From: a virus | Direction: 5' to 3' (one strand) | DNA: 25,458 nucleotides | Virus record (IMG/VR): IMGVR_UViG_3300043448_000586 | Coordinates: 1-25,458 of that record | In this document: piece by piece, positions 327 through 24,525 of the stretch | Layout of the letters: each line of letters opens with the position of its first letter | How positions within the stretch are numbered: position 1 is the stretch's first letter | Position numbers and translations under genes: made by a program | Notes under the pieces: generated by a model | Told to the model about the DNA's origin: nothing | Seen by the model: only the letters and a program-made list of their open reading frames with translations | Database searches by the model: none

Positions 327-1144
327 TCCTCTTCTCTTTCATACCTTTTTAAGCTGGCTGTGTGTTCAGCGTTGCTAGTTCTGGTATAACTTGGTGTCAT
401 ATCATTCATTTCTAAAATATCATCTCTAATATTTTGATTACGTTTTTCAATATTAATTATTCTAACAAAACTATTAGTAACAGCAGCAGTAAAATAAGCA
501 AAAGGATTGTTCGACTTGGCTTCATTAAATTGTAGTCCTACCTGTGTAAGTTGTAGTATAGCCTGTGCTCGCATTTCATCATTGTAAGTATATCCACGAA
601 CATTGCCACGGGTAGCATAGCGTTCACACAATTTCATATACATACGAGCTAGTGTGTTAGTTATTTGCCCGTGATCTTTACTGAACTTGCCACTTTTTAC
701 ACCACCCTTCCAATGACTTTTACCTACACAGACAAGTTCGTCATTTTCATCAAACTTCCAGTGTTGGAACGGTGGAAAATTTACACGATCATGCCCATCT
801 GCCTCAGTTTTTTGATTTTTCTTTCGTGTTTTATTCACAGGAATGTGTTCGTAGGTCATAATCCTAAAAACTAGATCAGTTTTAGCCATTTTTTTATAAT
901 CGACTTCACATTCAGCTTGTTTAACTTTTTCGCCTGCGTCTTTTCTACGATGATATTCTTGATCACCTAATCGTTTAGCACGATTGCGCTTGGCTTCAGC
1001 GATAGTACGTATATTAATCTTGTCTAAACTGGTAAGAATTATATCATATTGATTATATTCTGGTCTGCTAAAACTAGAATATGTGTTCTTGCTTTTATGT
1101 ATTTCTTCAAGTAAATCTTTATTATTAAGATAATTTACACTCAT
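323..1144 (-). CDS. gp55: late transcription sigma factor gp55, N-terminally extended form
   Basis: This 273-residue protein contains a sigma region-2-like helical core at about residues 156-245, including 'GYTYNDEMRAQAI' and 'NNPFAYFTAAVTNSF' followed by the basic 'IEKRNQNIRDD'. That block is the hallmark of T4 gp55, which directs host RNA polymerase to late promoters. T4 gp55 is about 185 residues; here about 150 residues precede the core, with a Lys/Arg-rich stretch (51-85) and a conserved-looking 'EADGHDRVNFPPFQHW' block (115-129). The extreme C terminus is acidic (ends EREEE) without an obvious hydrophobic clamp-binding cluster. The start at 1144 is supported by AGGAGAGG (1160-1153) eight bases upstream and by the sigma70 promoter at 1195-1167. 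It is divergent from the baseplate operon and overlaps gp47. Confidence 0.88.
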   Translation of the reverse strand: MSVNYLNNKDLLEEIHKSKNTYSSFSRPEYNQYDIILTSLDKINIRTIAEAKRNRAKRLGDQEYHRRKDAGEKVKQAECEVDYKKMAKTDLVFRIMTYEHIPVNKTRKKNQKTEADGHDRVNFPPFQHWKFDENDELVCVGKSHWKGGVKSGKFSKDHGQITNTLARMYMKLCERYATRGNVRGYTYNDEMRAQAILQLTQVGLQFNEAKSNNPFAYFTAAVTNSFVRIINIEKRNQNIRDDILEMNDMTPSYTRTSNAEHTASLKRYEREEE

Positions 1145-6482: not shown

Positions 6483-6923
6483 ATGGCTATTCAACGCTTA
6501 TATGATAGAATAGAAGTTCAAGGTAAAGAACGTAGAGAAACGCCACCTTTGCCTAGAACTTACAGAGGTTTTAGCACAATTAGTCCTGATAGCGAAAATT
6601 TTAGTATATATGACCTAGCACTAATAAAACAGGATTTATTAAATCATTTTCACATACGCAAGGGTGAAAAACTCAGTGATCCTAATTTTGGTACCATAAT
6701 ATGGGAAATTATATTTGAACCCATGACTGAGTCTATAAGAGATATAATTTTACGAGATGTTGAGGAAATTATTAATTATGACCCTAGGATACAAGCAGAA
6801 AATATTGTGGTAACTGCTTATGAAACAGGCATACAAATAGAGTGTGATTTAACCTACTTGCCCTATAATATCAGTGAATCACTGCGCTATAGGTTTGATC
6901 AGAGCGCAGGGATCATTGGTTAA
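6483..6923 (+). CDS. gp25: baseplate wedge protein gp25
   Basis: This 146-residue protein has the GPW_gp25 domain: 'IKQDLLNHFHIRKGEKL' followed by 'DPNFGTIIWEIIFEP' (about 49-80), then 'ILRDVEEIINYDPRI'. T4 gp25 is 132 residues. In contractile tails gp25 is the sheath-initiator-like wedge component that binds the gp6 dimer and the first sheath ring. It lies eight bases after the gp5 stop, with AGGAAAG about 12 bases upstream of the ATG, and directly before gp6, its structural partner. About 35 Pro/Arg-containing residues precede the domain. Confidence 0.93.
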   Translation: MAIQRLYDRIEVQGKERRETPPLPRTYRGFSTISPDSENFSIYDLALIKQDLLNHFHIRKGEKLSDPNFGTIIWEIIFEPMTESIRDIILRDVEEIINYDPRIQAENIVVTAYETGIQIECDLTYLPYNISESLRYRFDQSAGIIG

Positions 6924-6970: not shown

Positions 6971-9900
6971 ATGTCAGCAACTGATAGACAAAATAGATTA
7001 TTAGTGGCAGAAGACTGGCGTAGAATATACCAAAGTTTTCGTAATGCTGATTTTCAAAGTTATGATTTTGAAAATCTTCGTAGGGTAATGATTGATTATC
7101 TTAGAGAAAATTTCCCTGAAGATTTTAATGATTATATAGAAAGCAGTGAATATCTAGCCTTAATAGATATGATAGCATTTTTAGGTCAAAGTTTGGCCTT
7201 CCGTGTGGATCTAAATGCCCGTGAAAACTTTTTAGAACTAGCAGAACGTAGAGAAAGTATATTACGACTAGCCCGTACTTTAAGTTATAATGCCAAGCGT
7301 AACAAGCCAGCTAATGGTCTGCTTAAATGGTCTAGTATCAGTACAACAGAAAATATATTTGATGTAAATGGAAGAAATTTATCTGGTCAAGAAATAATTT
7401 GGAATGATCCTGCTAATAGTGATTGGTATGATCAATTTATTAGAGTAGTTAACAGTGCTTTACCAAGCACTAATCAATTTGGTGATCCTTTAGACAAGGC
7501 AGTAATTTATAATATTCCTACCGAACAATATAGGTTTCAAAGCGCCAGTACTGTAGTTCCTATCTATGCTTACAATAAAGTTGTAGATGGCAGAACAATG
7601 AACTTTGAAATTGTTAGTACAATAATTAAAGATGGTGAAAGTATAGCAGAAGATCCTCCACTATTAGGTAAAGATTTAAGTTTTATCTACAAAGATGATG
7701 GTCGTGGTAGTGCCAGTAACAACTCAGGTTTCTTCAGTCATTTTAGACAAGGTACATTGAATACAGGAACTTTTAATCTTAGTCAACCAAGCACAAATGA
7801 AATTGTAGACATCAATGCTATCAATATTAATGATACGGATGTTTGGCTCTATAAATTAGATAGTCAAGGACTTGAAGTAGAATATTGGCAACAAATACCT
7901 AACTTTGAATCAAACAACGTAATTTATAATAGTCTCAATAAAAATATTAGAAACATCTACAGTGTAGTAACAAGAACTAATGATAGAGTAAGTTTAGCAT
8001 TTAGCGACGGAGTATTTGGTAATTTACCAGTAGGTGATTTTAAAATATACTATAGGACCAGTAACGGATTAAGCTATACAATTAATCCAAAAGATATGAG
8101 AAATGTTACTATTGAATTTTCATATTTTAGTAATACAGGCCAATTAGAAGTAGTTAGTATAACAATGGGACTAGTTTCCAGCGTAAGTAATAGTGCTAAT
8201 ACTGAATCTAATGATCAAATAAAAACCAAAGCTCCTGCAACTTATTACACTCAAAATAGAATGATCACTGCTGAAGACTACAATATTAGTCCTTTAAGCG
8301 TAGATCAAGATATAATAAAAGTAAAATCAATTAATAGAACTAGTAGTGGTATTAGTCGTTATTATGATCTTATTGATCCAACTGGCAAATATAGTAGCAT
8401 CAGTCTATTTGGGGATGATGGTATTTTATACAAAGAGGAATTTGAGGATAGTATAAAATTTAAATTTGCTACCACTGTAGACATTGAAGGTATTATCTAT
8501 AATCAAATTATACCAATATTAAAAGAAATTAGTATTAGGAATTTTTATTATGATAAGTTTGCTAGAATAACTGTAAGCACTGATCTTAATTATAGATGGG
8601 TAAGAAAAACTAATGGCACTAACTATGGAACTGGATATATTATTGATTTTAGCAATGACATAGTCGGTTATGATACTAGCACCTTACTTAGACATTTGGA
8701 AGTAGGAAGTTTATTAAAATTTCAATCACCACCTGGAAAATTGTTTGACAAAACTAATGATAATAATTTAATTGATTACGATAGTACTCAAAGTAAACCA
8801 GCTAATGCCAGCACTTATATATGGGCAAGAGTAGTAAACATTATAAACAATGGCAATACTATGGAATTAGATAATGGTGATGGCAGTGTTTATCTTAATA
8901 TTAATGTGCCTACTAGTAGTTTACTAGTAGAAATTATTCCTAAATGGAGGACTAATTTAGATTCAAATACTATTACTACAATGGTAGGACTTGTATTTTC
9001 AAATAAACCATTTGGTCTAAGATATGACATAGAAACAAAAACTTGGAAGATTATTTTTGAGAATAACTTGAATACTGCCAGTATTTTTAGTATTGGTAAA
9101 AGTGGCGATCTAACACAACAAAAATTAGATTCAAGTTGGTTATTGTTGTTCAGTAGTGATACTGAATATTATACTGTAAAGTCGAGGAATTTAAGATATA
9201 TTTTTGAAAGTGATAAGAAAATTAGATTCTTTTATGATGGCACGAATAAGATTTACGATACTAAAACAAATACAATTATTAAAGACAAAATTAATATTCT
9301 TAGTATTAACAAACTGGCCAATAGTAATCAACAATTTAGTTATGATTTGCCTTGGGAAATAGTCAATGAATATACTGGATTAGATGGTTACATTGACACA
9401 AAGAAAATACAAATAAGCTTTTTTGATAATAACGATGATGGAGTTGTAGATAATCCAGATTTATTTGAAGAAATAGTTGAACCTTACAATAATGATCAAA
9501 CCCTAGATAAATCCAAGTTTATCATATTAGAAAAATATGAAACTAGTACAGGACAATTTGATTATAGATATACTTTTAATAATAAAGTACTAGTCAAATA
9601 TAATCAAAATGATGTAGCATTTATAGAAAAAATAGACAAACAATATTTTTATTTTACTGAATCTAACAGTGTGGCCAGATGGGATAATACACAGGGAAGA
9701 TATGTTTTCAATGTAGATTATAAGGTATTTCAAGGCAGGGATAGTTTAAAGTTTCAATATGTACACAGTGCTGATTATGAAACAAGAATTGATCCAGGTC
9801 AAACTAATATAATGGATATTTTTATATTGACCAAACAATATGACATAGAATTTAGAAAATGGTTAAGTGGAACTATAGAAAATGAGCCATTACCACCAAG

Positions 9901-10423
9901 CAGTGATTCTTTATCTCTACTTCTAAGTCCTAGTCTAAATGAAATTAAGGCAATGAGTGACGAAATAATATATCATCCTGTAAAATATAAAATTTTGTTT
10001 GGATCTAAGGCCAGTATTAATCTAAGAGCTATTTTTAAATTAGTTAAGAACCCTGAGCAAACTATCAGTGATAACGATATTAAATCTAGAGTATTAGTAA
10101 CTATAAACGAATTTTTTAGTTTAGACAACTGGGATTTTGGTGATAGTTTTTATTTCAGTGAGCTTGTAGCTTATATAATGAATAAAACTAGTCCATATCT
10201 AGTTAACATTTTAATAGTACCAAGAAATCCAGAACTTAGTTTTGGTAGTTTATTTGAAATAAAGGCAGAAAATAATCAAATTTTTATTAACGGTGCTATC
10301 AGTGAGGATATTGAAATTATTGACAGTATTACAGCCAGTAGTATCATGGCATCAGGTCTAATTGACAGCGTTTCAAATGTCAGCAGCCAACAAAATATAA
10401 TTAGCAGTTTGGGGAGTTATTGA
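6971..10423 (+). CDS. gp6: baseplate wedge protein gp6-like, enlarged
   Basis: This is a 1150-residue protein. The N-terminal 130 residues ('YDFENLRRVMIDYLRENFPE', 'YLALIDMIAFLGQSLAFRVD', 'ARENFLELAERRESILRLAR') and 'MITAEDYNISPLSVDQDIIK' (about 430-450) are typical gp6/baseplate-J elements. The C-terminal region (about 940-1120, with 'ILFGSKASINLRAIFKL' and 'FSLDNWDFGDSFYFSELVAY') is also gp6-like. gp6 dimers form the inner ring of the baseplate together with gp25 and gp53. T4 gp6 is 660 residues, so about 490 residues are extra, mostly a beta-rich, Asn/Asp-rich region around 510-900. The start is supported by AAGGA six bases upstream. The stop overlaps the next start by one base (TGATG). 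Confidence 0.92.
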   Translation: MSATDRQNRLLVAEDWRRIYQSFRNADFQSYDFENLRRVMIDYLRENFPEDFNDYIESSEYLALIDMIAFLGQSLAFRVDLNARENFLELAERRESILRLARTLSYNAKRNKPANGLLKWSSISTTENIFDVNGRNLSGQEIIWNDPANSDWYDQFIRVVNSALPSTNQFGDPLDKAVIYNIPTEQYRFQSASTVVPIYAYNKVVDGRTMNFEIVSTIIKDGESIAEDPPLLGKDLSFIYKDDGRGSASNNSGFFSHFRQGTLNTGTFNLSQPSTNEIVDINAININDTDVWLYKLDSQGLEVEYWQQIPNFESNNVIYNSLNKNIRNIYSVVTRTNDRVSLAFSDGVFGNLPVGDFKIYYRTSNGLSYTINPKDMRNVTIEFSYFSNTGQLEVVSITMGLVSSVSNSANTESNDQIKTKAPATYYTQNRMITAEDYNISPLSVDQDIIKVKSINRTSSGISRYYDLIDPTGKYSSISLFGDDGILYKEEFEDSIKFKFATTVDIEGIIYNQIIPILKEISIRNFYYDKFARITVSTDLNYRWVRKTNGTNYGTGYIIDFSNDIVGYDTSTLLRHLEVGSLLKFQSPPGKLFDKTNDNNLIDYDSTQSKPANASTYIWARVVNIINNGNTMELDNGDGSVYLNINVPTSSLLVEIIPKWRTNLDSNTITTMVGLVFSNKPFGLRYDIETKTWKIIFENNLNTASIFSIGKSGDLTQQKLDSSWLLLFSSDTEYYTVKSRNLRYIFESDKKIRFFYDGTNKIYDTKTNTIIKDKINILSINKLANSNQQFSYDLPWEIVNEYTGLDGYIDTKKIQISFFDNNDDGVVDNPDLFEEIVEPYNNDQTLDKSKFIILEKYETSTGQFDYRYTFNNKVLVKYNQNDVAFIEKIDKQYFYFTESNSVARWDNTQGRYVFNVDYKVFQGRDSLKFQYVHSADYETRIDPGQTNIMDIFILTKQYDIEFRKWLSGTIENEPLPPSSDSLSLLLSPSLNEIKAMSDEIIYHPVKYKILFGSKASINLRAIFKLVKNPEQTISDNDIKSRVLVTINEFFSLDNWDFGDSFYFSELVAYIMNKTSPYLVNILIVPRNPELSFGSLFEIKAENNQIFINGAISEDIEIIDSITASSIMASGLIDSVSNVSSQQNIISSLGSY

Positions 10424-13400
10424 TGTCAGATCAGTCAGTACCTCCATTTAATAACAGTAAAAGAAAAAGTGAAAGCTTTTTACCTAACATATTTAAGAGT
10501 CCTAGCAACAAAAAATTCTTAGCAGGGACATTGGATCCATTAATTCAAGATGGCACAGTAAAGAGATTAAATGGATATATAGGTAGACAAACATCCAAAA
10601 CTATTGTTGAATCAGACATTTACATAGATAGTCCACTAAAAAACAGACAGGATTATCAATTAGAACCAAGTCTATTAGCTGAAGATAATTTAGGTAATGT
10701 AAAATATTTTAAAGATTATATAGACTATGTTAATACTATTTCAGTACTAGGTGGTATTACTAATAATCATCAACGATTAAATCAACAAGAGTTTTACAGT
10801 TGGGAACCACACATTGACTGGGATAAAATTGTAAATTATCTACAGTATTATTGGTTACCATATGGTCCAGAAACTATTTTAATCAGTGGAACAAAGGTAT
10901 TAGATACTGTCAGTACATTTACAGTATCTATTGTTGATGAAGGTGATAACTTTGCCTATTTGTTCACACCAAATGGACTAACACGTAATCCAGATTTGAG
11001 ACTGTACAGAGGTGAAACTTATAGGTTTGAGTTAGATACACCTGATCAACCTTTTACAATAAAAACAGAAAGACTGGCTGGTGAAGATTTTAAGTACTCA
11101 AATGGAGTAACTAATAATGGTATAGCCAAAGGTATATTAGAATTTAAAGTTCCTTTAGATAGTCCAGATGTATTATTTTATGTCAGTGAAAATAATGTTG
11201 ACAGTAGCGGTGTTATTAAAGTATTTGACATAGAGGAAAATAGTCAAATTAATGTGGATGAGGAAGTAATAGGTAAAAAGTCCTATACTCTTAGTAATGG
11301 ATTAAGTCTCACTAATGGCATGAAAATAAAATTTAGGGGACTAGTCACTCCCAGTTCTTATAGGGATAATACCTATTATGTTGAGGGTGTAGGCGATGCT
11401 ATTACCTTGATCGATGAAAAGAATTTAGAAGTTGTATCAAGTTACACTAACTACCTAGACGTAAATTATGACAGTGTAGGTTTTGATGATTTACCATTTA
11501 ATAATATAAATTATGCCGCTGTTAATAAAGATTATATCACTATCAACCGTAGCAGTAGAGATAGAAATCATTGGTCAAGACACAATAGATGGATACACCA
11601 AGAAGTTATTATAAAAACAGCACAGATATTAGGTAAGCAACCTATTTTTGACCAACTACAGAGAGCTACAAGACCAATAATTGAATTTAAGCCAAATATA
11701 AAATTATACAACTTTGGGACAAAAAGTAAAATTAATATTGATCTTATAGATGATTTTACTAGAGATGCTTTCAGTGTTATAGAAGGAAGTTTTGGTTATA
11801 ATATAGATGGTGTAAAATTACTTAATGGACATAGAGTAATTTTCAAAGCAGATGAAGATATTACTGTAAGAAATAAAATTTATAAAGTAGAATTTTTAAA
11901 TATTTTCGATGAAGATACCGGTGAGGAAAAAAGACAAATACATTTAGCTGAAGAACCTGACAGCATACCTAATCTGGATGAAGTAGTTTTAGTCTTAGGT
12001 GGAACCAAATATTTAGGTAAAATGTTTTGGTTTAATGGAACAACATGGACACAGGCACAAGATAAAACTGGTGTAAACCAATCACCCTTGTTTGATCTTT
12101 TTGATAATGATGGGTTTAGCCTTAGTGATCCAGTAAAATATAGTGGTAGCACATTTAAAGGAACAAAATTATTTTCTTATAAAAATGGTAATGGTACCAA
12201 GGATACAGAGTTAGGATTTGCTTTATCCTATAGAAGTATCAATAACATTGGAGACATATTATTTGATTTTGATTTACTTAATGATAATTTTACCTATAAA
12301 CAGGATATTGACGTATTAGAGGAAAGCACTAATAACAAATTTCTTAAAAAATTTAATAGTGTTGGTGTAGAAAGTTTTGTCAATGGATGGACTAGATCAT
12401 TAGTAGAAAATTATCAACCTATAATAAGAATATTTAAAAAGGAATTTCGTCAGATTGGTGTAGTGAATCAAGTAATTACTAATAATTTTCCAATTGATGT
12501 TTATGATGATAGAACTAATCTACAAGATTTAGATGTGAAAATATATGTTAATGGTAAACGTATATATAGAAATCAATATAAAATTGTTGATGGCTTAATC
12601 AATAAGGAAGTTTTGCTTGATAATGATATTAATGAAACAGATGTTGTTGTTTTGAAATGCTACTCAAAGCAAGAAAAAAATAGTAATGGATATTATGAAT
12701 TCCCAATTAATTTTCAAAATAATAGTTTAAATGAAAATTTAACCAACTTTACACTAGGTGAAATACTAGATCATGTAGACACTATAGTTGATCATATTAG
12801 TGGTTTTGAAGGTGTATATCCTGGAATAAGTAATCTTAGAGACCAATCTAATCTAAGCAGTTATGGTACTAAATTTGTTAAACATTCAGGTAGTTTAAAT
12901 TTAAGCTTATACCACCTTACTGATAAAACAGCCAACTTAATACGTGCTTTAGATAAAGCTAGAGATGATTATGGCAAATTTAAAAGATCATTTGTTTATA
13001 ATTTTGATTTTTTAGAAGATGATATAAATGTTAAGGAAAATGTAGATAAAATTCTTTTTAACATAAGCAAAGGTAAATCAAAAACTAGTTCCTATTATTT
13101 TAGTAATATGTTGGCCTATAGTGGTTCAATCAAAACTAGTTTTAATGTAATAGATGGAGATATTAAAAAATATCCTTTATCAAGTGTTGTTATCAGTAAT
13201 GTTTTAGATCCAAGAGTAATCTATATCTATGTTAATAAAAATTTATTACTACATGAACGTGATTATATCTTTACTCTAGATGGCTATGTAGAGATTCTAA
13301 GTAAACTAAATGAATTAGATGTTATAGATATCTATGAGTATGATAATACAGATGGATGTTTTGTTCCTCAAACTCCAACCTGTTTAGGACTTTATCCTAA

Positions 13401-16400
13401 ATATGAACCAAAAAAATATTTAGATACTACATTAGTTGAACCTAAAAATGTAATACAAGGTCATGATGGAAGTATAATTTTAGCATTTGATGATTTTAGA
13501 GATGATTTAATTTTAGAATTAGAAAAAAGAATTTTCAACAATATTAAAATCAACTATGATCCTAAAATCTTTGACATATTTAATTTTATTCCAGGATCCA
13601 ACAGACCTACAGATTATTCTCTAAGCGAATTTAATACAATACTGGCTCCTAATTTTTTTACTTGGTCTACACTGATTGATACAGATTTTACCAAACAGTT
13701 ATTATTCTTATCAACTAATCCATTTACCTACAATTACAGTGAAGCTCCTAGTGTAGACAACTCAGTACTTGCTGGATTTTGGAGAGGTATTTACAAATGG
13801 TATTATGATACAGATCGTATACACATTTGTCCTTGGGAAGCATTAGGATTTAGTATAAAACCAAAATGGTGGGAACATGTTTATGGGGCTGCTCCCTATA
13901 CCAGTAATAATCTTATACTTTGGGAAGATTTAAAAAACGGTATTATCCGTGAACCAGGTCGTGTTCCTATTGTAAATACAAAGTATATTAGACCGATATT
14001 ATCAAACATACCAGTTGATGAACAGGGTAATTTGTTAGATCCTATTAATAATAACATAGCCACTGGTTTATTCAATATAAAAACAGATAAAGGTTATGAA
14101 TTTGGAGATCAAGGACCTGTAGAAACAGCTTGGCGTCGCAGTAGTTATTATCCTTTTAGTCTAATTAAATCATTGATTTTAATGTTCCCTAATCACTGTT
14201 TGGGACTGCTATTAGATAGAAGTAGAATAAAAAGAAATGCTGCTGGACAAATAATCTATGAACCAACAGGATTACATATAAGATTAAAAGATATAATAAC
14301 ACCTAGTGTATATAGTGATGATCAAAGAACTTACACTAGCGGTCTGATAAATTACGTTATTGAATATCTAACCAAGGATAATATAATAAATTTAACTGAG
14401 TATCGCAATACTTTGAGTATTTTGACCAATAAACTTAGTCATAGAATTGGTGGGTATACCAGTAAGGAAAAGTTTAATTTAATTTTAGACAGCAAAAATG
14501 TCAGTTCTTCTGGTGGTGTTTTTGTACCACAAGAAAACTATAAAATTTTCCTTAATACATCTAGTCCAATTAAAAAATTATTTTACAGTGCTGTAATTAT
14601 TACAAGACTTAATACTACTTATGGAGTAGGATATGAGATAAAAGGTTATAGTCAAACACAGCCATATTTTTACTATTACCCATGGACCAAAGTAGGATAT
14701 AATGTAAATGTAGGCGGAATAAGCGAAAGTTATATAAATTGGGAAAATGATCAAAGATATGTGGCAGGAAATATAGTAAAAATTGATAATGGTTATTATA
14801 GAGTAAAAATTAGTCATACAAGTTCAAGTTTTCCTGATTATGATCTACTACAAAAACTTCCGTCATTACCAATTATAGGTGGACGAGACGCAAACATTCG
14901 TAGTGAATTTAGTGATGATATCAAATTATTAAACTATGGAACTATTCTAACAACTATTCAAGATGTTGTTGACTTTTTATTGGGATACGGAGTTTATTTA
15001 GAAAGTCAAGGATTTGTTTTTGATAATTTTAATAAACAAATACAAAATATAACAAATTGGGAACTAAGTGTAAAAGAATTTTTATTTTGGACTACACAAA
15101 ATTGGAGCTCAGGTGCTAGTCAATACACTGACTGGTCCAGTGATACATTGTATAGATTTGGAAATATAGTTTACTATGAGGGTGAATTTTACAAAGTTTT
15201 TGTAGAACATACAACTAGTGAAATCTTTAATCCAGAATACTATTTAAAAATTGACGAGCTAGATAATGATGGAGCCAGCGCTATAAGTCTAAGTCCAGCT
15301 AGTCTTAAATTAGATTTAGATTTAGACTATTTTATCGTAGATGATATTAGAGAAACTAATAATGATTATGAAATTTTTGCTGCTGATGGATCAAAATATG
15401 ATTTTGAAGAACTAAATTACCTACGCTACGATAATACTTTCAGTATACAGCCTAAACAGGAAAATAAAGGAATTTACGGAGCAGGTCTATATCTAATTCA
15501 AAAAGAACATGTACTTATTATAGATAATCTTACACAATTTAATGACGTAATCTATAATATAGAAACAGGTTATAGGCAAGAAAGAATTAAAACTGTTGGT
15601 TATAAAACTACTAATTGGAATGGAAGTTTTGATGCTCCAGGGTTTATCTATGACCAAGCACGCATTCAAGAATGGAATCAATATACAGATTATAAATTAG
15701 GTGATATTGTAAAATACAAAGAATTTTATTATACAGCCAAAGAAAGTTTAATAGGACAGGAAAAGTTTGATAATAATCAATGGATCAGAGTTAATGAAAA
15801 AATAACATCTAGACTAATACCTAATTGGGACTATAAGGCTTTACAGTTTACTGACTTTTATGACTTGGACAGTGATAATTTTGACATTAATCAACAGCGT
15901 ATAGCACAACATTTAATTGGATATCAAAAAAGAAATTATTTAGAGAATATTATACAAAATGATGTCAGTGAATTTAAATTTTATCAAGGAATGATCACTG
16001 AAAAAGGGACTTTTAACAGTTTAAATAAATTATTTGATGTACTAAGCAATGCTGACCAAGATAGTTTAGATTTTGTAGAAGAATGGATGATTAGAGTAGG
16101 GCATTATGGAGCCAGTGAAGCCTTTGAAGAAATTGAATTTGTTTTAGATGAGTCATTGTTTAAAATTGAACCACAAAATTTTGAACTTGTTAGCAGCGTG
16201 GATAATAGTATTCTAGATTTTGTTGTACGTCAAACTAAACATGACTTATATGTTCAACCAATAAACTATCAAAATGATATTTGGCCAAAGAACAATAATT
16301 TTAAACCATATCTAAAAACTCCTGGGTTTGTTAGACTAGATCATGCCAAATATGCTATAGATAAAAAATCAGATATACTTAATTTAGATATAAAAACATT

Positions 16401-19400
16401 GACCAATAGTGATTATATTTGGTGCGGGTTTGAATCTAAAATTAATCAATTTGGTGATGATTGGGGCATATATAGATTTAGTTATATAGATATACGTTTA
16501 CAATCTATAGCATCAACTAACACTATTACAACTATTACTTTTGATGTAGATCCTAGTTTTGTAGTAGGAGACATAGTAGGATTTACCAGTAAAACTTATG
16601 ATTTTAATTTATGGGCAGTGGTCACTGAAAGTACAAATAAAACTGTTAAGTTTAGTGGAATTTCAAGAACATTACCAGGAAATGTAAATTATAGACTAGT
16701 TGATGTTTACAAAATCATTAATCAAAGATATACAAATATAGATTATTTAGAAGTTCCTAAATTTTTAAAATCAAACGACAGTGTTTGGAACTATGGAGAA
16801 CTTGTTTGGTTTTATAATAATAAGAATGAGATTTGGCAAAACATACCAATTTATGAAAAAAAGTTTATTACAGATAGTTCTCTACTTGATGATAGCTTTT
16901 ATGGATACAAAACTGTTATCAATAAATTAAGCACTGTAATGCTGGTTAGTACCTATGGTATAGATAAAAAAGTTTTTGTATACAAAAAACCATTTAACAC
17001 CTATACTTGGGTCAAACTACAAATTTTAAAAGATTCTGAAACTCAAAATAATTTTGGTAAAGAATTAGCTATTTCAGTAAATGCTTCTTACCTAGCAGTG
17101 GCAGCACATACTTTGGGTAATAATGGCATAGTAAATATTTACAAACGTAGCGCAACAGGTGAATACGATTTACAAAGTACAATTATTAATCCAGATGTAC
17201 AGGATGAATTTTTTGGATATAATATAAAATTTGCTGAATATAATAACGATACGTTTGTTTTTATAAGCAGTACTGATAGTATTAGTATTAGTGGCAAAAT
17301 TTATATTTTTAAATTAACTGTCAATAATTGGAACTTATATGATGTAATAGGACCTTTAGACAATTGCAATGAAGAACCTTTTGCCTACGCATTTGATGTC
17401 AATGAAGATGGTAGTATATTGGCTACTAGTGCCTGCTTAAATGATGGTGGCAAAGTTTTTGTTTATAATAGAAATAACACCACAAATCAATATGATAGAG
17501 AACAGGTATTAGACTTGCCTAATAATCAAGAAGAACGATTTGGGTTTGATATAGCACTTAGTGAAACAGGAAATTTAATGGCTATATCAAGTACCATGGA
17601 AGATATATTGTATAAAAATCAGGGAAGAGTGAGACTTTATAATTATAATACTTCTAATTGTACATATTCACTAGAACAAGTTATAGACAATAGAAGTCCT
17701 GAATCAGATGAAGAATTTGGTGAACAGTATGGATATGGAATTAAGTTTGCTAACAATGAAAAAACTTTGGTCATTTTTAGCAAATATGGTGACGCAAGTG
17801 TCAACAGTGTCTTTGGATTAGATAGCAGTCAAAATTTTATAGATACTGGCAGAATAGATGTTTATGATCAATATCTTACTAAATTTGTATTCTCAGAATC
17901 ATTACCAATAAGTTCAAAATTAGAAGGATATGGAGCTAGTTTTGATGTAGGTAATAATATTATTATTGTAGGTGCTCCTAACTATGATTCTAATAAGGGT
18001 AAAACCTATGTTTACACCAAGCCTAATAATGAATTTACATGGAAAAAATATTTAGAAGAGACAGATAAAACTGATCCTACAGTATTCAAAAAGATATTTT
18101 TATATGATAAGAAAACTAGCACACTAGTAAAATATTTAGATATAGTAGATCCTATACAAGGTAAAATATTAGGTGTTGCCGATAAAGAACTTAGGTACAA
18201 AACTTACTATGATCCAGCTATCTATAGCGTAAAATCAAATACTGCTACTGTAAACGTAGATGTTGATATGGCTTGGCTTGATAAACAGGTAGGTACACTA
18301 TGGTGGAATTTAACAAGAGCCAAGTTTATAGATCCTTGTATGGGTGATACTACTTATAGAAATACTACATGGAGTACTCTATTCCCTACAGCCAGTATTG
18401 ATGTTTATGAATGGGTAAGCAGTAGAGTGAATCCTGTACAGTGGGATGAACTTAGTGATACTGAGGATGGGTTTTCTTTAGGCATTAGTGGTAAATCATT
18501 ATATGGTTCAAATGCTTATAGTATTAAGAAAACCTACGATACAATAAGTAAAACTTTTATTTCAACCTATTATTTTTGGGTTAAGGGTAAACAAACTATA
18601 CCTTCAGTTAGTTTTAGGACTTTAAGTTCAATAGATGTAGCTAATAACATTGCAGAACCTAGAAACTATGGAATAAGTCATATTAATTTTATAGATTTTA
18701 ATGCGTTTAGTCTGGTTAACTGTAAAAATCTTCTAAAAGATAAGGATATTATCCTTAGCGTACAATATTGGACTGTACCAGAAAAAGAAAAACAGCATAT
18801 ACACAACGAATGGCGCTTAATTAGTGAGAATGAAAAAACTGAAATTCCTAAACATATTGAAAGAAAATGGATTGATAGTTTAGTAGGGTTTGACGAAAAT
18901 GGTAAAATGACACCTGATCTAGAACTAAACCCCAAACAAAGATATGGTGTAGAATTTAAACCAAGACAGGGCATGTTTGTCAATAGAATTGAGGCAGTCA
19001 AACAAGTTATTGAACGCTTTAATTATGAAATGAAAAACGTTCAAATAGATAATATTGATCTAAGTGATTTATTTTTAAAAGATGAAATTCCAAATAAAGA
19101 TTATGGTCATTATGATTTTATAAAAGATACTGATGCAGAGCTTAGATTCATTAATATTAATAATTTTAAACAGCCCATACTAGAACCAATTCTAGAATTT
19201 GGACGAATTGTAAAAGTTAATATATTAGATGCAGGGCTGGGTTATCAATATGCTCCTACTGTTCAAGTCATAGGATCTGGTGTTGGCGCAAAAGTTAAAA
19301 CAACTATTAATAAGTCAGGCAGTATTACATCAGTAACAGTTATAGAATCAGGTCAAGGGTATGACGAAACCAATATTGAATTAAGAGTTAGATCTCTTAG

Positions 19401-22400
19401 TGCTCTTGTAATTAGTGATAGTAATAGCATAGGATTATGGACAATTTATAGTTTAAATGGATCAAATTGGTATAGAACAAGAACTCAACAGTACAATGTA
19501 TTGAATTTTTGGAACTATATTGATTGGTATCAACCAGGATATAATCAATTTACAAAAATAGATTATGTTGTTGACGGTGTTTATCAAATATATAGTCTAC
19601 CAGTAGAAATTGGACAAATTGTTAAGGTCAATACTTCTACTAGTACAAGTAAATGGATGCTATTAGAAAAATATAACAATATAGATACATTAGATTATAC
19701 ACTAAATTATCGTGTTGTTGGAAAAAATAATGGATCAATACAATTAAGCGATAAATTTTACAATTTTGGAAAAAATAAATTAGGTTTTGATAGTGAATTG
19801 TTTGATTCAAACACTTATGATAGTATAGGCACTAATGAAATAAGAATTATTTTAAACAGCTTTAAAAATAAAATTTTGATAGATGATAGAAGAATCATTT
19901 ATATAAAATTATTTTTTGTAACTCTAAGATATATTCTAAGTGAACAGTTGTTTACTAATTGGATTGTAAAGAGTAGTTTTATAAAAGCTCTACATAATGT
20001 AGGAACACTAAAACAAAAAATTAATTATAAAAATGATAATCTTATAGATTATGAAAAATATATTCAAGAAGTCAAGCCATTTAGAACTAAAATACGTGAA
20101 TTTATCAGTATCTACAATAATATAGATAGTAGCCAAAGCTTAATCAGTGACTTTGACCTACCTTCATATACAACAAATAAAATTGTAAGCATATCTACAC
20201 AGTTTTTAAACAATGAAATTTTAGTTAATGATCCAACAATAAATGAATTTCCTTGGAGTTCTTGGCGCAGTAGTTTAGGTTTTAGTGTTAATGAAATTAT
20301 AATCACTGAACAGGGAGAGGAATATACTGCTAAACCTATTATAAGATTTGAAGGGTCATGTACAAGACCAGCTAAGGCCATGCCCTTTATAGTCAAAGGG
20401 CGTGTGGTTAAAATAGAATTATTAGATGGTGGTGAAGGGTATTTTGCTCCACCAAAAATTATAATTGAGGGCAATCTAAGTAGAACAGGAAAATTAGCCA
20501 AAGCCTACGCATCAATTGGTAACAATCTTGTTAGAAGTAACTTGATTGGTATGAAATTTGACAGATATACAAAAGAAAGTATGGTAGATCTTTTACCTTT
20601 GGTTATGGAAGAAACATTTGTAGGTGATAATGTTTCTACTAGTTTTAATCTAAAATACAGCCCAAAAACTGATCTCAATACTATTATAGTGCTGGTTAAT
20701 AATCAAGAACTTGTACCAACAAATTATACAGTGGAAAAAACCTATAGTGTTACAAAGGGTCATCATGTTTATTATGGAATATTGAAATTAAATGATGTCG
20801 TTGAAGAAGGGTTAGAAATTAGAATAACCTATCAAAAAGACTTTGTACATCTAAATGCCAGTGAAAGAATCAAACATTATTATGAACCAGATACAGGTCA
20901 ATTAGGTAAGGATCTCAGTCAACTGATGACAGGCATAGATTATGGTGGAGTCAGTGTTACAGGTTTAGGTTTTGAAAAATCAGATACATGGGATGGGGAA
21001 TATGGTTGGGGAGAAAGACCATGGGATGAAGGTATACCTGCCGATGAAGATTTATATGATACATTTATTGAAGGTGGAAATCTAAACCCAAATAGTGCTT
21101 ATAGAACAGCAAATGGTCTAAGAGCTGATGATATTATTATAGATGGTGATGGATTTATTACACCAACCACTAGCCCTGCTCCAGAGGAAATGGTTCCAGG
21201 GCACATTAGTGACAGCCTAGCTATCAGTGTATTTGAAAGAAGATTAGGAGCTAGTAGTGAAATAATAACCAACGTATTTCTAACTAATGGTATAGAAGAT
21301 GAATATAAAATTGGACAATATCCTAATAATAAAAATGCTCTAATTGTAAAAATAGATGACAATATTTTAAATCCTAACGAAGATTATGAACTAGATTATA
21401 ATAATCAAAAGATTAAACTTGTAACAATACCAGCAGCCAACAAAATTTTATCAATAACTAGTTTAGGTTTTAATGGTTCAAATATTTTAGATATTGGTGT
21501 TGCTATAGTTACACAAGAAACTGATACAGTGATAACTGATTTTAGTTTTATAGAAGATTTAACATCATTTACTTTGGTTTCTGGATCTGTTCAAAACAGT
21601 AGTATATTTGCCACTACAGAAGCTGATGGTAAAAAAGATCTAGTTGGTATAAAATTTCCTTTTACTCTCCCAGTAGGTACAGTTGTCAATTATACAATTT
21701 TTAAGAAAGGTGATGATAGTCAAAGTTTAGTTTCTAGAGAAACAATTTATACAACTGGAACAACTAAAAAATATTATCTAAATAATCCTATAGGAAATAG
21801 ACTACCGTTTACCAGCAATGTTATTGTAAGAGTAGAGGACATTATATTAGATAGTGTAGATACTTTTCAATTTTATTTAAAAAATGGTGAATTAACCTAT
21901 GATATGCCTTTAGATAAGGTTAACATTGACCTCTATAGTTTAAATGATTATATAGTTTATATTGACAACGTCCGTGTTGACCTAAGTACAGGCTACACAT
22001 TAGACTTGTTTAATAAACAAATTAATATTAAGTCAAACTACTATAAAGATAATGCTCTAGTAGTTGTTGCTATTACTAAAGAAGCTGATTATCAAATTAA
22101 TCAAGATGTTAATGGTACATTTATTAACCTACGTTCTACATACCCAAACAATACTGAAATAGAAATAATAGCTATGTTTAATCATGATATATTAGACATA
22201 GAACGTTCATATAGCAGAATACAAACCGATATATCCAGTTATGTTAACAATGTTTTCTATCTAAAATTAAATCAAATTGGATCTGGAGTATTTAAACTGG
22301 ATAGAAAAATGATAAATGCCAACTATGTATGGGTGACTAAAAATAAAAAGTTACTAACACCTAATATAGATTACATTTTATTGGAAGATCGCGAATCTAT

Positions 22401-23271
22401 CAGTGTAAGTGAACTGCCAAAAACTACAGATAGATTTGGTATTATGACTTTTAGTGCAAATGTGGTTAGAAATCCTATTGAATTCATGCAATTTAAAGAC
22501 ATGCTGAACCGAGTCAGCTACAAGAGACTACACCCAAATAGAACAACTGAATTAGATAGAGATCTATTACCTAGTGATAGAGAAATATTGGTAAAACATA
22601 GTGGGAGACTACGAGATCCAAATAAGGACACTAACAGTCCAGGCGTTGTATATGTAAATGGCGAGCGTATAGAATACTTTGTTAAGGTTGGAGAAAAACT
22701 AAGTCAATTACGCAGAGGCACTTTGGGCACTGGCGTTCCTAGTGTACATCTAAAAGGTACATTAGTATATGATATTGGTCCAGCGGAAACTATACCATAT
22801 AACGATGAAGTTATTGTATGGACTAAAAACAATGTTAATTTTGATGACAGTACAAACACCTTAATATTACCATTTGTGCCTAATAAGGATAATATTGAAG
22901 TATTTGTTGGATCAAAGCGTTTAAGAAAAAATAGTTACACTTTACACGATAGAACTATACATCCAGAAAGTCCTGAGGGTGATCAAATTCATCCTCCAGA
23001 ATTTATAGCAGATGGTATAAATCATGGCACAGCTGACAACAGAATAGGTTATTTGGTTCTAGCAGAAGAACCACCAATGGGATCTCCTATAACTGTAGTA
23101 TTGAAAAGATTAACTTATTGGAGTGATCCAGATCGTAGCCTAAGTGAGAGTGTAAGTAAACAAGCACACTTCTTAAGATACAATGTGGAAGAAATAGAGG
23201 GCACAGAACCTACATTAGACAGTGGTTTATATCGTGCTGATTCAGATGACTTAAATGTAGACGAGGATTAA
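10423..23271 (+). CDS. giant gp7-like baseplate wedge/virion structural protein
   Basis: One uninterrupted reading frame encodes 4282 residues. ATG 10423 is chosen over the preceding in-frame TTG 10420 because GGGGAG (10411-10416) is six bases upstream of the ATG. Position directly after gp6 and the N terminus ('LDPLIQDGTVKRLNGYIGR', 'EPHIDWDKIVNYLQYYWLP') match the gp7-position structural proteins of marine and jumbo T4-like phages, as I recall them; T4 gp7 is 1032 residues. Modules in order: cupredoxin-like sandwich (about 187-270); long conserved region with 'DQGPVETAWRRSSYYPFSL' (about 1230); three W/Y carbohydrate-binding-like repeats (1437-1791); seven-bladed beta-propeller (2158-2546); wedge-like block with 'GTLWWNLTRAKFIDPCMGD' (about 2625); Gly-x-Gly-Tyr repeats (2918-2990, 3291-3351); 'LMTGIDYGGVSV' block (about 3505); a VNG-type beta-module tail; and 'QLRRGTLGTG' (about 4100). 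No catalytic motif or transmembrane segment is seen. The structural role is firm; the gp7 equivalence is inference. Confidence 0.82.
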   Translation: MSDQSVPPFNNSKRKSESFLPNIFKSPSNKKFLAGTLDPLIQDGTVKRLNGYIGRQTSKTIVESDIYIDSPLKNRQDYQLEPSLLAEDNLGNVKYFKDYIDYVNTISVLGGITNNHQRLNQQEFYSWEPHIDWDKIVNYLQYYWLPYGPETILISGTKVLDTVSTFTVSIVDEGDNFAYLFTPNGLTRNPDLRLYRGETYRFELDTPDQPFTIKTERLAGEDFKYSNGVTNNGIAKGILEFKVPLDSPDVLFYVSENNVDSSGVIKVFDIEENSQINVDEEVIGKKSYTLSNGLSLTNGMKIKFRGLVTPSSYRDNTYYVEGVGDAITLIDEKNLEVVSSYTNYLDVNYDSVGFDDLPFNNINYAAVNKDYITINRSSRDRNHWSRHNRWIHQEVIIKTAQILGKQPIFDQLQRATRPIIEFKPNIKLYNFGTKSKINIDLIDDFTRDAFSVIEGSFGYNIDGVKLLNGHRVIFKADEDITVRNKIYKVEFLNIFDEDTGEEKRQIHLAEEPDSIPNLDEVVLVLGGTKYLGKMFWFNGTTWTQAQDKTGVNQSPLFDLFDNDGFSLSDPVKYSGSTFKGTKLFSYKNGNGTKDTELGFALSYRSINNIGDILFDFDLLNDNFTYKQDIDVLEESTNNKFLKKFNSVGVESFVNGWTRSLVENYQPIIRIFKKEFRQIGVVNQVITNNFPIDVYDDRTNLQDLDVKIYVNGKRIYRNQYKIVDGLINKEVLLDNDINETDVVVLKCYSKQEKNSNGYYEFPINFQNNSLNENLTNFTLGEILDHVDTIVDHISGFEGVYPGISNLRDQSNLSSYGTKFVKHSGSLNLSLYHLTDKTANLIRALDKARDDYGKFKRSFVYNFDFLEDDINVKENVDKILFNISKGKSKTSSYYFSNMLAYSGSIKTSFNVIDGDIKKYPLSSVVISNVLDPRVIYIYVNKNLLLHERDYIFTLDGYVEILSKLNELDVIDIYEYDNTDGCFVPQTPTCLGLYPKYEPKKYLDTTLVEPKNVIQGHDGSIILAFDDFRDDLILELEKRIFNNIKINYDPKIFDIFNFIPGSNRPTDYSLSEFNTILAPNFFTWSTLIDTDFTKQLLFLSTNPFTYNYSEAPSVDNSVLAGFWRGIYKWYYDTDRIHICPWEALGFSIKPKWWEHVYGAAPYTSNNLILWEDLKNGIIREPGRVPIVNTKYIRPILSNIPVDEQGNLLDPINNNIATGLFNIKTDKGYEFGDQGPVETAWRRSSYYPFSLIKSLILMFPNHCLGLLLDRSRIKRNAAGQIIYEPTGLHIRLKDIITPSVYSDDQRTYTSGLINYVIEYLTKDNIINLTEYRNTLSILTNKLSHRIGGYTSKEKFNLILDSKNVSSSGGVFVPQENYKIFLNTSSPIKKLFYSAVIITRLNTTYGVGYEIKGYSQTQPYFYYYPWTKVGYNVNVGGISESYINWENDQRYVAGNIVKIDNGYYRVKISHTSSSFPDYDLLQKLPSLPIIGGRDANIRSEFSDDIKLLNYGTILTTIQDVVDFLLGYGVYLESQGFVFDNFNKQIQNITNWELSVKEFLFWTTQNWSSGASQYTDWSSDTLYRFGNIVYYEGEFYKVFVEHTTSEIFNPEYYLKIDELDNDGASAISLSPASLKLDLDLDYFIVDDIRETNNDYEIFAADGSKYDFEELNYLRYDNTFSIQPKQENKGIYGAGLYLIQKEHVLIIDNLTQFNDVIYNIETGYRQERIKTVGYKTTNWNGSFDAPGFIYDQARIQEWNQYTDYKLGDIVKYKEFYYTAKESLIGQEKFDNNQWIRVNEKITSRLIPNWDYKALQFTDFYDLDSDNFDINQQRIAQHLIGYQKRNYLENIIQNDVSEFKFYQGMITEKGTFNSLNKLFDVLSNADQDSLDFVEEWMIRVGHYGASEAFEEIEFVLDESLFKIEPQNFELVSSVDNSILDFVVRQTKHDLYVQPINYQNDIWPKNNNFKPYLKTPGFVRLDHAKYAIDKKSDILNLDIKTLTNSDYIWCGFESKINQFGDDWGIYRFSYIDIRLQSIASTNTITTITFDVDPSFVVGDIVGFTSKTYDFNLWAVVTESTNKTVKFSGISRTLPGNVNYRLVDVYKIINQRYTNIDYLEVPKFLKSNDSVWNYGELVWFYNNKNEIWQNIPIYEKKFITDSSLLDDSFYGYKTVINKLSTVMLVSTYGIDKKVFVYKKPFNTYTWVKLQILKDSETQNNFGKELAISVNASYLAVAAHTLGNNGIVNIYKRSATGEYDLQSTIINPDVQDEFFGYNIKFAEYNNDTFVFISSTDSISISGKIYIFKLTVNNWNLYDVIGPLDNCNEEPFAYAFDVNEDGSILATSACLNDGGKVFVYNRNNTTNQYDREQVLDLPNNQEERFGFDIALSETGNLMAISSTMEDILYKNQGRVRLYNYNTSNCTYSLEQVIDNRSPESDEEFGEQYGYGIKFANNEKTLVIFSKYGDASVNSVFGLDSSQNFIDTGRIDVYDQYLTKFVFSESLPISSKLEGYGASFDVGNNIIIVGAPNYDSNKGKTYVYTKPNNEFTWKKYLEETDKTDPTVFKKIFLYDKKTSTLVKYLDIVDPIQGKILGVADKELRYKTYYDPAIYSVKSNTATVNVDVDMAWLDKQVGTLWWNLTRAKFIDPCMGDTTYRNTTWSTLFPTASIDVYEWVSSRVNPVQWDELSDTEDGFSLGISGKSLYGSNAYSIKKTYDTISKTFISTYYFWVKGKQTIPSVSFRTLSSIDVANNIAEPRNYGISHINFIDFNAFSLVNCKNLLKDKDIILSVQYWTVPEKEKQHIHNEWRLISENEKTEIPKHIERKWIDSLVGFDENGKMTPDLELNPKQRYGVEFKPRQGMFVNRIEAVKQVIERFNYEMKNVQIDNIDLSDLFLKDEIPNKDYGHYDFIKDTDAELRFININNFKQPILEPILEFGRIVKVNILDAGLGYQYAPTVQVIGSGVGAKVKTTINKSGSITSVTVIESGQGYDETNIELRVRSLSALVISDSNSIGLWTIYSLNGSNWYRTRTQQYNVLNFWNYIDWYQPGYNQFTKIDYVVDGVYQIYSLPVEIGQIVKVNTSTSTSKWMLLEKYNNIDTLDYTLNYRVVGKNNGSIQLSDKFYNFGKNKLGFDSELFDSNTYDSIGTNEIRIILNSFKNKILIDDRRIIYIKLFFVTLRYILSEQLFTNWIVKSSFIKALHNVGTLKQKINYKNDNLIDYEKYIQEVKPFRTKIREFISIYNNIDSSQSLISDFDLPSYTTNKIVSISTQFLNNEILVNDPTINEFPWSSWRSSLGFSVNEIIITEQGEEYTAKPIIRFEGSCTRPAKAMPFIVKGRVVKIELLDGGEGYFAPPKIIIEGNLSRTGKLAKAYASIGNNLVRSNLIGMKFDRYTKESMVDLLPLVMEETFVGDNVSTSFNLKYSPKTDLNTIIVLVNNQELVPTNYTVEKTYSVTKGHHVYYGILKLNDVVEEGLEIRITYQKDFVHLNASERIKHYYEPDTGQLGKDLSQLMTGIDYGGVSVTGLGFEKSDTWDGEYGWGERPWDEGIPADEDLYDTFIEGGNLNPNSAYRTANGLRADDIIIDGDGFITPTTSPAPEEMVPGHISDSLAISVFERRLGASSEIITNVFLTNGIEDEYKIGQYPNNKNALIVKIDDNILNPNEDYELDYNNQKIKLVTIPAANKILSITSLGFNGSNILDIGVAIVTQETDTVITDFSFIEDLTSFTLVSGSVQNSSIFATTEADGKKDLVGIKFPFTLPVGTVVNYTIFKKGDDSQSLVSRETIYTTGTTKKYYLNNPIGNRLPFTSNVIVRVEDIILDSVDTFQFYLKNGELTYDMPLDKVNIDLYSLNDYIVYIDNVRVDLSTGYTLDLFNKQINIKSNYYKDNALVVVAITKEADYQINQDVNGTFINLRSTYPNNTEIEIIAMFNHDILDIERSYSRIQTDISSYVNNVFYLKLNQIGSGVFKLDRKMINANYVWVTKNKKLLTPNIDYILLEDRESISVSELPKTTDRFGIMTFSANVVRNPIEFMQFKDMLNRVSYKRLHPNRTTELDRDLLPSDREILVKHSGRLRDPNKDTNSPGVVYVNGERIEYFVKVGEKLSQLRRGTLGTGVPSVHLKGTLVYDIGPAETIPYNDEVIVWTKNNVNFDDSTNTLILPFVPNKDNIEVFVGSKRLRKNSYTLHDRTIHPESPEGDQIHPPEFIADGINHGTADNRIGYLVLAEEPPMGSPITVVLKRLTYWSDPDRSLSESVSKQAHFLRYNVEEIEGTEPTLDSGLYRADSDDLNVDED
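10981..11229 (+). other. cupredoxin-like domain in the giant protein, metal ligands lost
   Basis: Residues about 187-269 of the giant protein read 'NPDLRLYRGETYRFELDT', 'QPFTIKT', 'GVTNNGIAKGILEFKVP' and 'VLFYVSENN'. This is the order of strands in phage and bacterial cupredoxin-like domains, where the equivalents are typically G-H-P-F and Y-x-C-x-x-H. Here the histidine before Pro-Phe is Gln, and the Cys/His of the last loop are replaced by Val-Ser-Glu-Asn. The fold therefore seems kept as a structural or binding sandwich without copper. This is a fold guess from pattern only. Confidence 0.55.
14731..14862 (+). repeat. carbohydrate-binding-like module 1 (CBM5/12-type pattern)
   Basis: Residues 1437-1480 of the giant protein fit W-x5-Y-x2-G-[ND]-I-V-x-[IY]-x3-[FY]-Y: W1440, then 'RYVAGNIVKIDNGYYRV'. 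This Trp/Tyr-spaced, G-[ND]-x-V pattern is that of small CBM5/12-type chitin-binding modules. It is the first of three copies. Confidence 0.55.
15124..15255 (+). repeat. carbohydrate-binding-like module 2 (CBM5/12-type pattern)
   Basis: Residues 1568-1611 carry W1571 and 'LYRFGNIVYYEGEFYKV', aligning without gaps to modules 1 and 3 over 44 residues. 'YYEGEFYKV' is closest to the classic Y-x-G-x-x-Y arrangement of CBM5/12 modules. Confidence 0.6.
15664..15795 (+). repeat. carbohydrate-binding-like module 3 (CBM5/12-type pattern)
   Basis: Residues 1748-1791 carry W1751 and 'DYKLGDIVKYKEFYYTA', followed by 'NNQWIRV' near the end, which is the usual closing strand of such modules. Copies differ at most positions, so the repetition is old and would not be found as DNA repeats. 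Confidence 0.6.
16894..18060 (+). repeat. seven-bladed beta-propeller inside the giant protein
   Basis: Residues 2158-2546 contain seven degenerate repeats of about 55 residues. Each has an aromatic-Gly-aromatic opening, a strand ending in small residues, and a G-x-[VI]-x-[VIL]-[YF] strand. Openings/closings include 'FYGYKTVI'/'KKVFVYKK', 'NNFGKELAIS'/'GIVNIYKR', 'EFFGYNIKF'/'GKIYIFKL', 'EPFAYAFDV'/'GKVFVYNR', 'ERFGFDIAL'/'GRVRLYNY', 'EQYGYGIKF'/'GRIDVYDQ' and 'EGYGASFDV'/'GKTYVYTK'. This is the FG-GAP/integrin-alpha style of propeller. No clear DxDxDG calcium loops are seen. Phage propellers of this kind may act in receptor contact or as rigid spacers; the role here is inference. Confidence 0.7.
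19174..19392 (+). repeat. Gly-x-Gly-Tyr beta repeats, first pair
   Basis: Residues about 2918-2990 of the giant protein contain 'VNILDAGLGYQYAPTVQVIG' and, 30 residues later, 'VTVIESGQGYDETNIELRV'. The unit is a strand, G-x-G-Y turn and second strand. Similar units recur in marine phage tail proteins, from memory. Confidence 0.6.
20293..20475 (+). repeat. Gly-x-Gly-Tyr beta repeats, second pair
   Basis: Residues about 3291-3351 contain 'IIITEQGEEYTAKPIIRFEG' and 'VKIELLDGGEGYFAPPKIII', the same unit as in residues 2918-2990; the first member has E-E-Y in place of G-x-G-Y. The two pairs are separated by about 300 residues of unrelated sequence. Confidence 0.6.
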
Positions 23272-23274
23272 AAC

Positions 23275-24525
23275 ATGGCCAAGCAAACCATAAACATAGG
23301 AGCGAGCCCAAATGATGGTACAGGAGATACCTTACGTAGGGCAGCAATTAAGGTAAATGATAACTTTACAGAATTATATAATAGTCTACAAAATATTATA
23401 TTGACTCCTGGACCACAAGGTATACAGGGAACTCAAGGTGCTCAAGGACGTCAAGGTACACAAGGACGTCAAGGATTACAGGGTATAGGATTGATTGGTG
23501 ATCAAGGGCTACAAGGTATACAAGGACTACAAGGAGCAAATGGGTTTTTAGGTCTACAGGGTGAACAGGGACTACAAGGTTGGGCAGGATTTCAAGGTGT
23601 TCAAGGAGCACAAGGTCTCCAAGGATTACAAGGTCGTGATGGAGTAAATGGAGTAGACGGAAATCAAGGTACACAGGGTCTACAAGGTCCTGGTAATCAA
23701 GGTACACAGGGTACACAGGGTACACAGGGTAATAATGGTACCACGGGACCAACAGGTAGTCAAGGTACACAAGGTCCACAAGGCTTACAGGGACTACAAG
23801 GTAGAGAAGGTGTACAAGGTCAAATGGGTCTACAGGGTGCCGGTATACAAGGATTTGATGGTCGCCAAGGAGCACAGGGATTCAACGGTATACCAGGAGC
23901 TAATGGCATACAGGGTATACAGGGATTACAGGGCAATTTAGGTAATCAAGGTACACAAGGTCCACAAAGTACGCAAGGTACACAAGGTATACAAGGTGAT
24001 AATGGGCCACAGGGACTACAAGGCCCTATTGGCAATGATGGTAATAATGGCACACAAGGTATACAAGGTCTACAAGGACCTAGTAGTGGAGCACAAGGAA
24101 CGCAGGGATTACAAGGTGCTAATGGTGGTGGAGGTGGTACTGGACTAGGTTCAAGAACTACAAGTCAAGCAACTACTCCAATAATTACTAATAACAGCAG
24201 TGCTAATCTTGATTTTACAGGATTTAAAGGATATGTATTATACAAAATTCAAACTAGTGAAGCAGCTTGGGTAAGATTATATGTAAGTAATGCTGCTAGA
24301 ACTGCTGATGCCAGTAGAACACAGGGTACTGATCCAGCTTATGATGCCGGAGTAATTACAGAAGTTATTACAACAGGCCTAAGCACAGTAGTTATGGCGC
24401 CTGCTGTACATGGATTTAATGATGAAAGCCCAGTAACTGACATTATTCCAGTAGCAGTCACTAATTTAAGTGCTAGTGCTGCCACCATTACTGTAACATT
24501 AACTTTATTACAGGCAGAAGCATGA
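23275..24525 (+). CDS. collagen-like fibre/tail appendage protein
   Basis: This is a 416-residue protein. Residues 1-45 contain 'NIGASPNDGTGDTLRRA' and 'VNDNFTELYNSL', an N-terminal module shared by many phage fibre and structural proteins and probably the attachment or trimerisation end. Residues 46-284 are about 80 Gly-X-Y triplets with Gln at most Y positions and very little Pro. Breaks occur at 'GIGLIG', 'GPGNQ', 'GAGIQ', 'GPQSTQ' and 'GPSSG'. Residues about 290-416, after a Gly-rich hinge, form a beta-rich C-terminal domain ('YVLYKIQTSEAAWVRLYV', 'MAPAVHGFND', 'ITVTLTLLQAEA'), a plausible trimeric tip. GAGGA lies seven bases before the ATG, four bases after the giant gene. The last four bases overlap the protease start. 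A fibre or whisker is likely; its place on the virion is unknown. Confidence 0.82.
   Translation: MAKQTINIGASPNDGTGDTLRRAAIKVNDNFTELYNSLQNIILTPGPQGIQGTQGAQGRQGTQGRQGLQGIGLIGDQGLQGIQGLQGANGFLGLQGEQGLQGWAGFQGVQGAQGLQGLQGRDGVNGVDGNQGTQGLQGPGNQGTQGTQGTQGNNGTTGPTGSQGTQGPQGLQGLQGREGVQGQMGLQGAGIQGFDGRQGAQGFNGIPGANGIQGIQGLQGNLGNQGTQGPQSTQGTQGIQGDNGPQGLQGPIGNDGNNGTQGIQGLQGPSSGAQGTQGLQGANGGGGGTGLGSRTTSQATTPIITNNSSANLDFTGFKGYVLYKIQTSEAAWVRLYVSNAARTADASRTQGTDPAYDAGVITEVITTGLSTVVMAPAVHGFNDESPVTDIIPVAVTNLSASAATITVTLTLLQAEA
23410..24121 (+). repeat. collagen-like coding repeat array
   Basis: The Gly-X-Gln triplets are written with a small set of 9-base words such as GGTACACAA, GGTATACAA, GGACTACAA and GGTCTACAA, so the DNA is itself strongly repetitive in a 9-base rhythm. 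It is not a CRISPR array: there are no spacers of constant length and the frame stays open throughout. Confidence 0.85.
23701..23727 (+). repeat. perfect tandem 9-base repeat, three copies
   Basis: GGTACACAG occurs three times head to tail, encoding three Gly-Thr-Gln triplets. It is the longest perfect tandem run I see within the collagen-like region and keeps frame when copies are gained or lost. Confidence 0.9.

Follow-up and report, generated by a model that had tools for sequence, protein, structure and literature searches.

In phage T4, the baseplate wedge protein gp7 is a monomer present in six copies per tail (PMC3004832), and a gp7 orthologue of 242 residues (gp17) is enough for the wedge in the structure of phage XM1 (PMC10457771). 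The protein encoded directly after gp6 ranges from 246 aa in PhiW-14, through 896 in Melnitz-1, 1006 in phiN3, 1032 in T4 and 1164 in K491, to thousands in cyanophages and jumbo phages. At the small end, PhiW-14 gp64 (L204:8587-9327) is annotated as 'head closure Hc2', lies directly after gp6 and matches PF23786 with an E-value of 2e-33. We consider it a minimal gp7-type wedge protein, and both phrog_3465 and the PhiW-14 record seem to be mislabelled. At the large end is the cyanophage protein Syn19_088 (6483 aa, L011:14655-34106), which is annotated as a 'hypothetical protein' and is encoded directly after gp6. Its residues 696-724 contain the motif of T4 gp7 (hhalign E 3.4e-5), phrog_17744 matches the protein (E 4e-16), and insertions interrupt its T4 gp7 core. 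'Giant gp7' is the most fitting description of this protein, which sets a clear precedent for a post-gp6 protein with a gp7 core reaching 6483 aa. A further post-gp6 giant, from cyanophage S-8S55, is a 'baseplate wedge initiator' of 3891 aa.

The giant proteins of jumbo phages that are closest to the one described here belong to family phrog_10938, and are among the largest phage virion proteins, being found in more than 500 viral contigs. Isolates that carry them infect Escherichia, Klebsiella, Pseudomonas, Agrobacterium and Vibrio, and the proteins are listed only as 'virion structural protein', which is also the label of the family itself.

The window analysed here is a whole viral record of 25,458 bases. 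About half of this phage fragment is a single gene on the + strand (10423..23271, the giant gene), which encodes 4282 aa with a computed mass of 491.5 kDa. The open reading frame spans 10420-23271, with a first start at TTG 10420 and an ATG at 10423, and has zero internal stops; the ATG shares one base with the TGA stop codon of the preceding gp6-like gene (10421-10423). Third-position GC is low in every block of the frame. When compared to L025 (84% identical over residues 1-3589), all nine 400-aa blocks gave dN/dS values of 0.06-0.08. When compared to the more distant L013 (53% identical), dN/dS stayed under 0.3 in all but the propeller region and residues 3601-4000, and the frame was kept through the last block. 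No RNA families or tRNAs were found in a search of the window.

The profile phrog_10938 matches most of the giant in five stretches (E 0, 1036 bits), which adds the protein to a family already on record. Using tblastn, relatives were found in jumbo phages of Klebsiella, Escherichia, Salmonella, Erwinia and Pseudomonas, and additionally in those of Xanthomonas, Agrobacterium, Sinorhizobium, Vibrio and Salicola. Eight jumbo phage records were opened, and in seven of them the homologue is immediately downstream of the gp6-position gene: PA5oct gp355 (3857 aa), RaK2 ORF070 (3326 aa), Atu_ph07 gp180 (4449 aa), Phosso (4555 aa), 121Q gp582 (3323 aa), Vibrio 2.275.O (3771 aa) and CBB_236 (3340 aa). 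In Vibrio 2.275.O the annotation names the CBM5/12 domain, and in the other six it reads baseplate wedge. In the eighth record, the homologue (Salicola phage SCTP-2 gp140, 3807 aa) is preceded by an unannotated 9.3-kb ORF of 3096 aa (L004:8630-17920), which may be a giant gp6. In Klebsiella phage K64-1 (NC_027399.1, ~52591-59820), unlike RaK2, the annotation divides the corresponding region among several hypothetical proteins, possibly through a fault of annotation or sequence. A scan of IMG/VR confirmed at least 536 relatives. Of these, 80 were examined, and 36 have complete frames (3680-5276 aa, median 4774), placing the giant of the window at the small end among the relatives examined.

The first-pass annotation had described an intact single frame of 4282 residues starting at 10423, and the ORF listing, the dN/dS values and the intact homologues agree on this point. 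No frame break is seen, the frame being conserved against L025 and L013 and intact in relatives. An assembly artefact or a decayed frame is a reading to which we give almost no credence, as it is already refuted by purifying selection along the compared frame and by many intact homologues of similar size. Eight isolated jumbo phages carry complete frames of 3323-4555 aa, and IMG/VR adds 36 more, so there is no need to invoke an artefact of assembly. The ORF is real and intact, far beyond chance. The giant was also said to be about four times as long as T4 gp7, and the ratio is indeed 4.15 (4282 to 1032 aa).

The gene order in the window, all on the + strand, is gp25, gp6, giant and a gp9/10-type fibre gene. 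The gp25-like baseplate wedge gene (6483..6923) matches phrog_261 and phrog_43, and the gp6-like wedge gene (6971..10423, 1150 aa) matches phrog_10646 (E 2e-294) and phrog_219 (E 1e-15). Downstream of the giant lies a collagen-like fibre gene (23275..24525) with a T4 gp9/gp10 N-terminal domain (PF07880, E 3.4e-9 at 23281-23394). Because the next gene bears this domain, the giant fills the slot that in T4 is occupied by gp7 and gp8. The gp7 position proposed in the first-pass annotation is thus borne out, and phrog_10938 homologues follow gp6 in other jumbo phages. As a separate observation, the fibre gene has a G+C content of ~0.43, compared to ~0.30 in the giant gene.

Evidence from relatives of the window phage places proteins of this kind in the virion. 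ESI-MS/MS detection is stated in the record of PA5oct gp355, and CBB_236 was found in virions with 21 peptides (PMC5259590). In phAPEC6, the 382 kDa protein gp245 was detected in virions with 17 peptides and adjoins the wedge protein gp244 (PMC7247149); from its size and position we infer that it is a homologue of the giant. Absence from virions, which the first-pass annotation named as evidence against its reading, is not what these relatives show. The PHROG category of phrog_10938 is 'head and packaging', which would fit a structural protein of the head or neck. We find this very improbable, as the gene sits between gp6 and the gp9/10-type fibre gene, and as phrog_701 and phrog_4406, which are in the same category, also match gp7-core proteins. 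The category seems to collect virion proteins of any kind.

The anatomy of the giant was derived from an alignment of eight giants, by distinguishing conserved blocks from stretches that are missing in many distant relatives. The scaffold blocks comprise residues 49-144, 360-900, 980-1440, 1500-1560, 1621-1740, 1801-1980, 2540-2880 and 3020-3250. The N-terminal block (residues 49-144; 10567..10854, this and all further features on the + strand) is conserved in all isolated relatives. It is followed in the alignment by residues 360-900 (11500..13122) and by the strongly conserved residues 980-1440 (13360..14742), which contain the motifs GHDGS, WRGIY, PWEMLGF and WW in that order. Further conserved blocks lie at residues 2555-2880 (18085..19062) and at residues 3020-3250 (19480..20172), the latter with long helices, and a conserved C-terminal block lies at residues 3480-3600 (20860..21222). 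The phrog_10938 giants of jumbo phages resemble the giant of the window along the whole scaffold and in their place after gp6, but are only ~25-30% identical to it and differ in their sets of inserted modules.

The segmented structure prediction proposed in the first-pass annotation was performed with AlphaFold2 for residues 960-1960 (mean pLDDT 75) and 2555-3600 (mean pLDDT 72). A Foldseek search of the PDB with the two segments gave no solved baseplate protein at E <= 0.001 and only weak CBM-type matches. Foldseek against BFVD returned relatives from the same family. A sequence search of the PDB with the giant returned only chitin-binding domains and one tailspike repeat.

Several modules are inserted in the scaffold. 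Residues ~160-270 (10900..11232) resemble a domain that occurs in gp9 connectors and tail fibres of cyanophages (38.9% identity and E 2e-12 to S-B05, for example), and this module is missing in RaK2/121Q-type relatives. Three modules of CBM5/12 type are found at residues 1437-1482 (14731..14868), 1568-1613 (15124..15261) and 1748-1792 (15664..15798). The Pfam model PF02839 scores above its gathering threshold (38.6 vs 26.2 bits) in two stretches, the second module being the best, and a further copy was found via a local model. With Foldseek, fold matches of these modules to chitin-binding domains have high probability and weak E-values. As judged from sequence, these are three chitin-binding-type domains and carbohydrate binding is predicted for them. 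By the local model, RaK2, 121Q and SCTP-2 have no CBM5/12, whereas the giant of the window has three. Residues 2159-2544 (16897..18054) form seven FG-GAP-type blades, for which PF14312 scores barely above its cut-off (23.4 vs 23) when the segment is scanned alone; these repeats probably close into one β-propeller. Several hundred residues interrupt the series of propeller repeats in many relatives, so that the insertions are nested. Repeats of the type GxGYxxxPxVxIxG occur at residues ~2910-2990 (19150..19392), in common with Syn19_088, and again at residues ~3287-3365 (20281..20517), where phrog_22827 matches. The first-pass annotation had described wedge-like blocks combined with many binding-type modules. 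A conserved scaffold bearing binding-type modules is what we see, but derivation of that scaffold from gp7 is only suggestive.

The curated gp7 models phrog_964, phrog_17744 and PF23786 do not match the giant, nor do they match in the related jumbo phages, although PF23786 also misses T4 itself and is thus a weak test. T4 gp7 itself found no match in the giant, whether by direct BLAST or by hhalign over the full length. Seven jumbo phage records and the 400-kb contig G001 gave no match to phrog_964 (gp7) or PF09215 (gp8), whereas T4 and Syn19 are positive for both in the same tests.

A broad gp7-core profile combines T4-like gp7 cores with cyanophage giants and with the smaller gp7 proteins from phiN3, PhiW-14, Melnitz-1 and K491. 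Against residues 1778-1927, it aligns over 79 collinear columns (1800-1878) with an hhalign probability of 44% and a pairwise E-value of 2.4e-4. The aligned stretch (15820..16056; F..FY ... FYQGMI.EKGT.NSL.KLF) is the most conserved of the giant, and we consider it a candidate gp7-like core. The hhalign score of 32.0 was reached by none of 150 column shuffles, whose maximum was 20.3. Because the motif was picked after inspection of the alignment, a scan of all windows along the giant is a fairer control than a single E-value; windows over the 1800-1878 stretch come top at 29.7, with the next at 22.7. The gp7 core consists of a helix-turn-helix and an FYxxKG motif; its helix-turn-helix half, used alone, gave no significant match, and no region stands out. 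In the isolated AlphaFold2 model, residues ~1809-1902 are helical with low confidence, a pattern that would fit a segment in need of a partner without proving it.

The giant could instead be a peripheral baseplate or fibre-anchoring protein that does not derive from gp7 and shares only its gene position, the real gp7 being undetected elsewhere or lost. The failure of the curated models, the large conserved scaffold that has no counterpart in T4 gp7 and the limitation of the motif evidence to ~80 residues all favour such an origin. Yet the position is kept across very different jumbo phages, the models used find no other gp7 candidate, and the motif result exceeds all shuffles, so we hold this alternative to be unlikely, while still deserving serious consideration. 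Overall, descent from gp7 is suggested by these sequence comparisons as likely but unproven. The wedge identity assigned in the first-pass annotation is thus supported by gene position and by a tailored profile-profile match, and not by the standard gp7 models phrog_964 and PF23786.

Compared to the known systems, the giant shares with T4 gp7 the order gp6, gp7 position and gp9/10, and possibly a short core motif, but T4 gp7 is four times smaller, its standard models give no significant match, and the giant's scaffold is unrelated to it in sequence. The minimal gp7 proteins PhiW-14 gp64 and XM1 gp17 occupy the same wedge slot beside the gp6 protein, but are seventeen times smaller, indicating that only a small core is needed. 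The cyanophage giants similarly follow gp6 and have insertions and GxGYxxxPxVxIxG repeats, but they have a clear gp7 core, and no match to the conserved jumbo scaffold was seen in Syn19_088.

Taken as a whole, we favour with reasonable confidence the reading that the giant is a baseplate virion protein, occupying the slot of gp7 (and probably that of gp8 too) in a T4-like jumbo phage, with binding modules inserted in its scaffold. We take it as a probable substitute for gp7 in the wedge, enlarged by insertions that include sugar-binding modules, and infer a peripheral-baseplate role. The giant would then join gp6 in the wedge complex as its third partner, one copy per wedge in a core bundle of the (gp6)2-gp7 type, with a scaffold of ~2500 residues that would attach to gp6 and build the baseplate rim, the short helical gp7-like core being the best candidate for the contact to gp6. 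The scaffold may also attach to the gp9/10-type fibre encoded next door. The CBM5/12 domains, the seven-bladed propeller and the repeats shared with cyanophages would project from the rim, where they may touch host-surface polysaccharide or hold fibres. By analogy with T4 (PMC3004832), six copies, if present, would amount to a calculated 2.95 MDa; contact with gp6 is likewise proposed by this analogy, and glycan binding from the types of module.

More tentatively, and with doubts somewhat outweighing our confidence, the gp7 slot may be an open-ended growth site of T4-like baseplates. Starting from a core of fewer than 250 residues, the protein in this slot would have grown more than once, in part through insertions within the core, to 1000 residues in T4, 3300-5300 in jumbo phages and 6500 in cyanophages. 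In jumbo phages, the giant would have taken over from both gp7 and gp8 and would form a multi-megadalton sugar-binding baseplate rim. If the giant is a swollen gp7, then the size of the jumbo baseplate, its modules and part of host recognition would come down to one gene, whose insertions could be compared across phages.

Finally, genes similar to SbcD/gp47 and to the late sigma factor gp55 lie at the other end of the window (3-1144, - strand) and point away from the baseplate genes. We see the same arrangement of these two genes relative to the baseplate genes in PA5oct and RaK2.
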